Below are positions 9,518 to 11,802 of a stretch of 35,719 nucleotides of DNA, piece by piece. A model generated the notes under the pieces. That model was not told where the DNA came from and did no database searches. It was given only the letters and a program-made list of their open reading frames with translations. Position 1 is the stretch's first letter, and the number at the start of each line of letters is the position of its first letter. The position numbers and the translations under genes were made by a program. The DNA is from Lachnospiraceae bacterium (GTDB taxonomy: Bacteria > Bacillota > Clostridia > Lachnospirales > Lachnospiraceae), in NCBI GenBank assembly GCA_024687655.1, contig JAILEN010000077.1:1-35719 (forward strand), in the 5' to 3' direction.

Positions 9518-9856
9518 ATGGATAGTGCCGGATCGGTTCAGAGAGACCTTTTTTCAAAGTTTATAATGGCTTTCAACAGAGCTGAGCGTGAGACATACAA
9601 GGTTGACAGACTGATCCCCGGCCCCGATGAACTGGCTGAGCGCGAAAAGTGCAGGCGTATACCCACCATGACAGGACGCAAGAGACTGTCCAGGGGTATT
9701 ATCGAGGAGCAGCTTACCGAGGTGGAGGGTATCATAGATCATCTGGGTACTCTTACGGAGAATGTTGATGATGCCAGTCAGTTTGCGCAGATGCTAGCAG
9801 ACTCGGAGCCTGTTGAGGGAGCTGAGGAGATTGACATTAAGAGCATCATTGGATAA
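9518..9856 (+). CDS. Conserved-looking hypothetical protein, 112 aa
   Basis: I do not recognise this protein. It is soluble, with no signal peptide or membrane segment. It is basic in the first 65 residues (for example TGRKRLSRG) and acidic at the C-terminus, with predicted helices around 70-95. There are no obvious catalytic motifs. It has its own promoter, a good site (ACGAGGTGG) before the ATG, and its own terminator, so it is a single-gene unit and probably real. Codon use is like its neighbours. Confidence 0.7.
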   Translation: MDSAGSVQRDLFSKFIMAFNRAERETYKVDRLIPGPDELAEREKCRRIPTMTGRKRLSRGIIEEQLTEVEGIIDHLGTLTENVDDASQFAQMLADSEPVEGAEEIDIKSIIG

Positions 9857-9884
9857 AATACGCATAGATAGTTTAGGACGAGCA

Positions 9885-9918
9885 GAGGGATTTTCATTTA
9901 TATGAGAATTCCTCTTTT
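9885..9918 (+). terminator. Rho-independent terminator after the 112-aa gene
   Basis: GAGGGATTTTC pairs with GAGAATTCCTC as an 11-bp stem with two G-U pairs, followed by TTTT. It ends about 20 nt before the next start. Confidence 0.75.
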
Positions 9919-9938
9919 GTTCTCTAAAAGGAAGCCCC

Positions 9939-10805
9939 ATGCAGAGTATCACAAAGGATCAAAACTGCAGATATTCGTTGTTTTTGCATGAGCCCTCCGT
10001 GGACGCAGAGGGCAGACACTACTGTCGTGCCATGAATTTATGTATCGACGATGATTTTGCCCATTGTGATTCATGCCCTTTGTGCGTCAGGGATGATGAG
10101 GGTTCTGTGGGCTGCCAGTATTATGATGTTTCTGCCGGCTACAGTAACGGCCTCGGTCCTGATGAGACCATGAAGCGTGTGGCGGGACTTATAGAGTCCG
10201 GTATGACGGGTGAGTTTCCCGAATACATGCCTGCCGGCACCGATCCTAAGTTTCTGGTTGAGGAGCAGGCTATCAGATATGCTGCTCAGGCACACAGGGG
10301 TACATTCAGAAAGGGCAGCGGCCTGCCTTATATAGTGCATCCCATGGAGGTCATGATGATATGCAAGAACTTAAGCGATGATCCCGATGTCATTGCGGCA
10401 GCAGCTCTTCATGATGTGGTGGAGGATACCCCCCATACCCTCAGGGACTTAGAGGAGGCCTTTGGTACCAGGATAGCCGCCCTGGTGGGACTGGAGTCGG
10501 AGAACAAGCGTGAGGATCAGCCAAAGTCCGATACCTGGAAGATCCGCAAGCATGAGAATCTGGAGAGGGAGAGGACGGCTCCCATTGAGGCTAAAATGAT
10601 AATGCTGGCGGACAAGGTTTCCAATATGCGGGCCACTGTTTCCGACTACCTGGAAGGAACCGGAGATATCTGGTCCAAGTTCAATATGAAGGATCCAGGG
10701 GAGCAGGAATGGTATTACCGCAGTGTGGCCCAGGTGCTTTCCGATCTGTCGGATACGCCGGAGTATGCCGAATATGTCAGAATGCTGGACATGGTATTTA
10801 AATAG
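9939..10805 (+). CDS. HD-domain phosphohydrolase, alarmone-hydrolase-like, with Cys-rich N-terminus
   Basis: The protein has 288 residues. From about residue 108 it matches the hydrolase half of RelA/SpoT and small alarmone hydrolases: AAQAHRG, FRKGSGLPYIVHP, AAALHDVVEDT (HD and ED motifs) and MLADKVSNMRA (distal metal-binding Asp). No synthetase domain is present. The likely role is removal of pyrophosphate from (p)ppGpp or a related nucleotide; the true substrate is not shown by sequence. The first 60 residues hold seven cysteines (C10, C29, C35, C43, C46, C49, C59) with a C-x2-C-x2-C core, suggesting a zinc or iron-sulfur site not found in ordinary members. AAGGAAG precedes the ATG. Confidence 0.85.
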   Translation: MQSITKDQNCRYSLFLHEPSVDAEGRHYCRAMNLCIDDDFAHCDSCPLCVRDDEGSVGCQYYDVSAGYSNGLGPDETMKRVAGLIESGMTGEFPEYMPAGTDPKFLVEEQAIRYAAQAHRGTFRKGSGLPYIVHPMEVMMICKNLSDDPDVIAAAALHDVVEDTPHTLRDLEEAFGTRIAALVGLESENKREDQPKSDTWKIRKHENLERERTAPIEAKMIMLADKVSNMRATVSDYLEGTGDIWSKFNMKDPGEQEWYYRSVAQVLSDLSDTPEYAEYVRMLDMVFK

Positions 10806-10971: not shown

Positions 10972-11802
10972 ATGGCAGGATTACAGATCACACCGGTTAC
11001 ACCGGGCATATCCACGCCGACAGCTCCGACCACACGGACCGGGGGCCCCGCAGCAGAGGGCACCACAGTTGATACCGTCAAAAACAGTGCTACAGAGATC
11101 CGCACTCCTGCCCAGCGTGAGGAAAGTGCAGTAGATCGCGCCATCACAGAAAATACCGAGAAGGAACGTACCGACAGGACCAGAGAGACTGAGCAGCAGC
11201 GCAGAGAGGATGCTCTTGAAAATGTAGTTTCGGTTTCTGATGACGGAGACACTGTTCAGGTCAGTGATGAGGGAGCACAGGAGCTTTCGGAGAGCACATC
11301 AGGTGCTGTTATTTCACAGAGACAGTCAGAGGCAGAGGCACTCCGTGATGAGGAGGACATTGAGATCGAGCCTGTAGAGGCGCCGGAGATCGAGCCTATC
11401 GAGGCACCGGAGATTACTCCCGTTACGACGGATACAGACGATGAAAAGAGGGAGATCACCAGCTTTGTCGGATACACGGACCAGCAGGTTGAGCAGATGT
11501 ATCTCAAGGGCGAGATCTCTCAGAACGATTACAACAATGAGATTGCCCGCAGAGAGGAGTTAGAGGCTTCCGACCGGGCTGACAAAGAGCAGTTCAACCG
11601 CGATATGGGCAGGCTCGAGGAGGCAGACTCCCGTACAGAGAGAGCGGACTTTGCCATCGAGAACGCCATTGAAAACGGCAACGAAAGGATCGGACTTGAC
11701 CAGCGTATGCAGGCTGTTGACGATCTGTTCGAGGGCAGGCAGAATGAGGCTCGCCGTCAGGAAGAGGCAGGTAGATTATGGGATTATCAGCTGCAAGTAT
11801 GA
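10972..11802 (+). CDS. Acidic, Pro/Thr-rich hypothetical protein with tandem repeats, 276 aa
   Basis: I cannot assign a family. The N-terminus is Thr/Pro/Gly-rich with no signal peptide, the middle is strongly charged and probably disordered, and residues about 124-150 contain an eight-residue tandem repeat (IEPVEAPE, IEPIEAPE, ITPV). Residues 160-275 look helical and include a short-ORF-like module (VEQMYLKGEISQNDYNNEIA) similar in style to SHOCT helices, and coiled-coil-prone stretches. The stop overlaps the next gene by an ATGA, so the two products are probably made together. Cytoplasmic location is inferred from lack of export signals. Confidence 0.65.
   Translation: MAGLQITPVTPGISTPTAPTTRTGGPAAEGTTVDTVKNSATEIRTPAQREESAVDRAITENTEKERTDRTRETEQQRREDALENVVSVSDDGDTVQVSDEGAQELSESTSGAVISQRQSEAEALRDEEDIEIEPVEAPEIEPIEAPEITPVTTDTDDEKREITSFVGYTDQQVEQMYLKGEISQNDYNNEIARREELEASDRADKEQFNRDMGRLEEADSRTERADFAIENAIENGNERIGLDQRMQAVDDLFEGRQNEARRQEEAGRLWDYQLQV

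Follow-up and report, generated by a model that had tools for sequence, protein, structure and literature searches.

What is a cysteine-rich segment doing at the front of a small alarmone hydrolase (SAH)? Bacterial SAHs have mostly been treated as bare, unregulated HD domains. The stretch of DNA analysed here (35,719 nucleotides of a Lachnospiraceae contig, hereafter called the window) encodes a protein in which such a domain is preceded by a segment containing seven cysteines. We asked whether this segment is a conserved part of the protein, where else it occurs, and what it might do.

The hydrolase and its N-terminal extension

The features of the gene are as follows.

9939..10805, plus strand: gene for a small alarmone hydrolase with an N-terminal four-cysteine module (open reading frame, translation, RBS-like site and 17 in-frame module-bearing entries)
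9928-9934: RBS-like AAGGAAG, directly 5' of the ATG
9966..10136, plus strand: four-cysteine module, residues ~10-66, about 57 residues, with the pattern [YF]-C29-R-A-x-N ... C43-x2-C46-P-L ... C59-x-Y (alignments, column statistics, dN/dS 0.2)
10023..10025, plus strand: codon of C29, invariant in 16 of 16 modules
10065..10067, plus strand: codon of C43, invariant in 16 of 16
10074..10076, plus strand: codon of C46, invariant in 16 of 16, next to invariant P47
10113..10115, plus strand: codon of C59, invariant in 16 of 16, within C-x-Y61
10137..10250, plus strand: linker, residues 67-104 (alignments and AlphaFold2 model)
10251..10802, plus strand: SAH-type HD domain, residues 105-288 (HD_4, alignment, model, PDB fold matches)

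The reading frame opens with an ATG at 9939 and encodes 288 residues, with cysteines at positions 10, 29, 35, 43, 46, 49 and 59. The open reading frame list and the translation agree on this with the first-pass annotation, which had further described a 60-residue cysteine segment joined to the hydrolase. The stretch N-terminal to the HD domain is longer than that, at about 104 residues, and residues 1-104 gave no match in Pfam or NCBIfam scans of the whole protein. The linker is variable in sequence, with a predicted helix at residues 74-90 and a conserved F93-P94 right before the HD domain; in the alignment it is absent or shortened in two homologues (L005 and L088).

The hydrolase domain itself is of the SpoT/MESH1 type, as had been proposed. 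Pfam HD_4 (PF13328) covers residues 111-247 with 71.5 bits against a cut-off of 27.2 (E 8.6e-20), and the NCBIfam matches to RelA/SpoT were all partial, confined to the HD domain and under the curated cut-offs. The nearest solved relatives in a PDB sequence search are SAHs and RSH hydrolase domains, headed by Lmo0812 (4yf1). All the aligned SAHs share R124, H134, H158-D159, E162-D163, D225 and N229, which are the metal-ligand and catalytic positions of the family. Fold matches to the AlphaFold2 model of the domain (block-mean pLDDT mostly 85-97) include Corynebacterium glutamicum RelH (7qoc/7qod; TM on the target 0.82-0.89), a Leptospira SAH and human MESH1.

No RelA_SpoT synthetase domain (PF04607) was found within the 288 residues. 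The source genome has a long Rel and, in addition, two RelA_SpoT synthetase genes; PF04607 occurs in it only at loci other than this one. With an RSH-type HD domain, intact H/HD/ED/D/N residues and no synthetase domain, the product of 9939-10805 is, by architecture and catalytic residues, a small alarmone hydrolase.

A module with four invariant cysteines

Sixteen modules from genome contigs and related genomes were aligned (mean pairwise identity 31%, minimum 19%). Seven of 67 positions are invariant (C29, R30, C43, C46, P47, C59 and Y61), and H17, Y28, A31, N33 and D63 are nearly so. Cysteine accounts for four of the seven invariant columns, an overlap that on its own has a hypergeometric P of 0.0014. 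The modules share the signature [YF]-C-R-[AS]-x-[ND]-x(8-12)-C-x(2,3)-C-P-x(8-20)-C-x-Y, from which there is one departure, an Arg in place of Asn/Asp in L133.

The other three cysteines are not conserved: C10 is found in 4 of the 16 modules, C35 in 2 and C49 in 4. The core C-x2-C-x2-C (C43/C46/C49) of the first-pass annotation is therefore not a conserved unit. Poor conservation in orthologues, which that annotation had regarded as evidence against its own proposal, applies to C10, C35 and C49 but not to C29, C43, C46 and C59, each present in all 16 homologues, and the cysteine segment stands as a conserved entity fused to the hydrolase.

Selection on the protein points the same way. The module has a dN/dS of 0.2 against its nearest relative (L145) and of 0.2 against L131, with values for the HD domain of 0.14 and 0.08, respectively; its reading frame is open in all homologues and no indel shifts it. 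Because the cysteines are invariant, the homologues in frame and dN/dS 0.2, we regard the module as translated and conserved, with four cysteines, and the substitution pattern indicates that it is under purifying selection. That the cysteines are instead a chance excess in a weakly constrained N-terminal tail is extremely improbable, for although three of the seven are not conserved, the retention of four in every module at 31% identity, the column statistics, the low dN/dS and the unbroken frame all contradict it.

Cys4 metal sites commonly take the form of a short domain with four conserved cysteines, a CxxC among them, and the four cysteines here, capable of metal ligation as in zinc and iron-sulfur proteins, are present throughout the alignment. 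Since they include a CxxC and lie within a short module, C29, C43, C46 and C59 most likely hold one metal centre. Zinc is the favoured candidate because the module is small, separable and shared with phages (see below); an Fe-S cluster would be possible though less likely, and we keep it open because Pro-Leu follows the CxxC. A proline right after the CxxC cysteine (CxxCPL) fits [4Fe-4S] proteins, for example endonuclease III, just as well. Moreover, the arrangement of a single CxxC and two isolated cysteines differs from the classical two-knuckle zinc ribbon.

Modelled alone, the module has beta strands at residues 10-17, 27-29, 34-36, 49-51 and 57-66, with middling confidence (block pLDDT 61-77 over residues 11-60). 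Pfam scans of 12 members gave only single sub-threshold matches, a PDB profile search gave a best E of 0.48, and a fold search with the low-confidence model gave nothing at E <= 0.001. Neither profile nor structure matched the module to known zinc-finger or zinc-ribbon families, and no profile match related it to the CxxCPL Fe-S families. We also considered the module as a homologue of the ZFD/CC domain of long RSHs and rejected this on finding no profile match in the Pfam or NCBIfam scans. No paper found in the open-access literature describes a cysteine module on an SAH. The earlier remark that no family with this arrangement is described agrees with what Pfam, NCBIfam, the PDB sequence search and that literature hold; judged by these comparisons, the module is a previously undescribed variant addition to a known kind of enzyme.

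Distribution and genomic setting

Among 299 Lachnospiraceae genomes there are 99 SAH-like matches at E <= 1e-27, in 96 genomes. By count of the matches listed, 8 of these 96 genomes carry the module on an SAH, and most other SAHs in the family have their N terminus at the HD domain or close to it. A profile search recovered module-bearing SAHs in 14 of 397 genomes of the family (one of these matches is weak and interrupted by a stop) and in four of the eight genomes of the genus; beyond the family, the rest of the order, class and phylum gave nothing convincing except one stand-alone protein. Weak profile matches at L139-L142, L244 and L245 were rejected on inspection as out of frame, stop-broken or unrelated. 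The association with HD domains that the first-pass annotation had proposed to look for is real in that the module is fused to one in nearly all the cases recovered, but it is carried by a minority of SAHs and has rare stand-alone forms.

In a tree of the HD domains, 15 of the 17 module-bearing entries fall in one group (SH-aLRT 86) and two (L099 and L102) lie near the base; the module label needs only two changes. The SAH extension of L104 (G139) keeps D-x-x-G-x-x-F-C-R without the other module cysteines and is apparently a decayed module; because only this remnant is kept, losses of the module are likely.

The module is also found apart from an active hydrolase. In L134 (G183, ORF 802-2175) it lies between a UDG-like N-terminal domain, named by eye and without a Pfam match, and a truncated HD region that stops short and no longer has the HD and ED residues; all four module cysteines are kept. 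The same genome carries a separate, ordinary SAH. Outside the Lachnospiraceae, the module is seen only as rare stand-alone proteins, in one other Clostridia genome and in Lysinibacillus phages. The first (L243, 1447-1731) has 94 residues from its first ATG and matches the module profile with E 1.5e-5, and the second, also of 94 residues (Lysinibacillus phage vB_LfM_LysYB1 WAB25174.1; L246 1489-1773), matches the first with E 5e-5. Both read C-R-x-x-N ... C-x2-C-P-x-F-x-G ... C-x-W-x-D, with the same order and spacing class as the module. They lack an HD domain and belong to no named family, whereas the module studied here is fused to an SAH. Stand-alone occurrence is the usual look of small zinc-finger-like binding modules.

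Because it is retained on a degenerate HD region and found on its own, the module is, on these alignments, a domain in its own right. Moreover, its role can be separated from hydrolysis, since L134 keeps the four cysteines on a catalytically dead HD region.

Viral contigs and plasmids searched with the 288-residue protein matched only as bare HD domains, and L243 and the phage protein as queries brought no further viral or plasmid relatives. A Subdoligranulum variabile plasmid record (OY725836.1, 146522-147058) contains an unannotated SAH with 50% identity to the HD domain here and no match to the cysteine module.

The surroundings of the gene are conserved. In the window and at six other module loci, the module gene is followed by a gene for a THUMP-type RNA methyltransferase, sometimes with one or two small genes between them. 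Among the genes that follow there is usually one for a papain-like secreted protease; others encode an N-acetylmuramoyl-L-alanine amidase, an XTP/dITP-pyrophosphatase-like protein and a small phosphoesterase (neighbour names were assigned by eye). None of the sampled SAH loci without a module shares this arrangement. By gene order, the module-bearing SAH is inherited vertically at a fixed place. The conserved neighbourhood includes no redox, Fe-S, oxygen or metal gene, and as a clue to function we set it aside: it is conserved, but its content is housekeeping.

Two flanking proteins, one acidic and repetitive (276 residues, window 10972-11802) and one of 112 residues (9518-9856), are conserved in these positions in several genomes and had no Pfam or NCBIfam match. 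Rfam found nothing within the window. One further feature lies before the gene.

9884..9915, plus strand: hairpin with a T-run, between the upstream open reading frame and the hydrolase gene; same place in L004, L145 and L131

This hairpin is conserved within the genus and probably terminates transcription of the upstream gene. A sigma-70-like element (TTGACA-17-TAAAAT, 9831-9859) lies before it, at the 3' end of the upstream reading frame, and because the element precedes the hairpin, attenuation is conceivable.

Elsewhere, SAHs are found in other company. The cluster at L115 475-4354 (G229) encodes a bare SAH together with a PP2C/RsbU-type phosphatase that has a histidine-kinase-like ATPase part, and a protein combining STAS and kinase-like (APH-type) parts; in L013 the SAH, STAS and APH-like parts lie within one open reading frame (domains assigned by eye in both). 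There are hints here of a partner-switching system around some SAHs.

Candidate roles and relation to known systems

We give about an even chance to the following explanation as a whole: the protein is a single-function SAH with an N-terminal Cys4-metal module for docking, oligomerization or allostery. By analogy with the SAHs that have been solved and assayed, the HD enzyme would be Mn2+-dependent and would remove the 3'-pyrophosphate of (p)ppGpp, (p)ppApp or both. Besides this protein, the cells have a long Rel and two more genes for alarmone synthetases. The module would fold as a small beta-rich domain with a single metal centre on C29, C43, C46 and C59, most probably a structural Zn2+ and less probably an Fe-S cluster. 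Because it is fused to a complete hydrolase and retained on a dead one, we infer that it may place or tune the hydrolase. Against this explanation, the module has no sequence or fold match to known metal domains and its model is of low confidence; most members of the family lack it, as do half of those in the genus.

The least doubtful of the alternatives, though still an unlikely one, is a redox switch: a [4Fe-4S] or [2Fe-2S] cluster labile to oxygen, or a reversible disulfide, would raise or lower the hydrolysis of alarmone (or NADPH) according to its state and so tie the stringent response of an anaerobe to its oxygen or iron supply. The hosts are Lachnospiraceae, as a rule strict anaerobes, the module is joined directly to a catalytic domain in almost all the cases recovered, and C43-x2-C46-P-L is similar to the CxxCPL loop that [4Fe-4S] DNA-repair enzymes have. 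But some 92% of the SAH-bearing relatives, equally anaerobic, have no module, the conserved neighbourhood lacks an Fe-S or redox gene, the module is kept on the dead HD region of L134, and its stand-alone form is found in phages of aerobic Lysinibacillus. The sensor function first proposed for the module is a fair hypothesis to raise but unlikely to be right. Slightly more doubtful still is its narrower form, in which a redox- or metal-responsive switch (Fe-S or labile Zn) directly gates alarmone hydrolysis, independently of the ribosome, in a clade of obligate anaerobes.

It is also unlikely that the module is purely structural, a zinc-stabilized N-terminal cap that helps one SAH clade to fold or dimerize without sensing or docking. 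Such a cap could well be lineage-restricted and vertically inherited in a fixed gene neighbourhood, as the module is, and could tolerate the variable linker, which is missing in L005 and L088. However, closely related HD domains manage without the module, and the module is kept on a degenerate HD domain and is also found alone.

Similarly unlikely is an HD substrate other than (p)ppGpp, such as (p)ppApp, NADPH or another phosphorylated nucleotide, which would put the protein outside the stringent response. The base specificity of an SAH cannot be read from its sequence, and alarmone as the substrate here would follow from analogy. Some SAHs favour (p)ppApp (PMC7644958) and some also take NADPH (PMC9765508). 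However, the closest structural matches include C. glutamicum RelH, which hydrolyses (pp)pGpp with Mn2+ (PMC5954133) and prefers ppGpp, and the genome has three alarmone synthetase genes of its own.

Whatever the balance between the docking, oligomerization or allosteric role that we prefer and its rivals, the four-cysteine SAH clade is a direct, testable case for the idea that gut and rumen Lachnospiraceae break down alarmones in a regulated or localized way, and it brings to light a small Cys4 module, undescribed so far, that occurs also alone and in phages. Were the switch reading true, the stringent response would receive an oxygen or metal input where alarmones are degraded, with no part played by the ribosome.

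How does this protein compare with known systems? With RelH (7qoc/7qod), Lmo0812 (4yf1) and MESH1 (3nr1/5vxa) it has in common the HD_4 fold, the catalytic residues, the C-terminal helices and the absence of a synthetase domain. By contrast, the solved SAHs are chains of ~150-205 residues that start at or near the HD domain, and none has a four-cysteine module. The CxxCPL Fe-S loops of endonuclease III and family 4 uracil-DNA glycosylase likewise have a CxxC followed by Pro-Leu and two further cysteines, but the cysteine spacing is 13, 2, 12 in the module and 6, 2, 5 in endonuclease III. The ZFD/CC domain of RelA, SpoT and Rel is likewise a cysteine-bearing regulatory domain on an alarmone enzyme. 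In long RSHs the CC domain has three conserved cysteines and is C-terminal (PMC3153485), and the ZFD contacts the ribosome (PMC6719525), whereas the module described here is N-terminal, has four conserved cysteines and differs in sequence.
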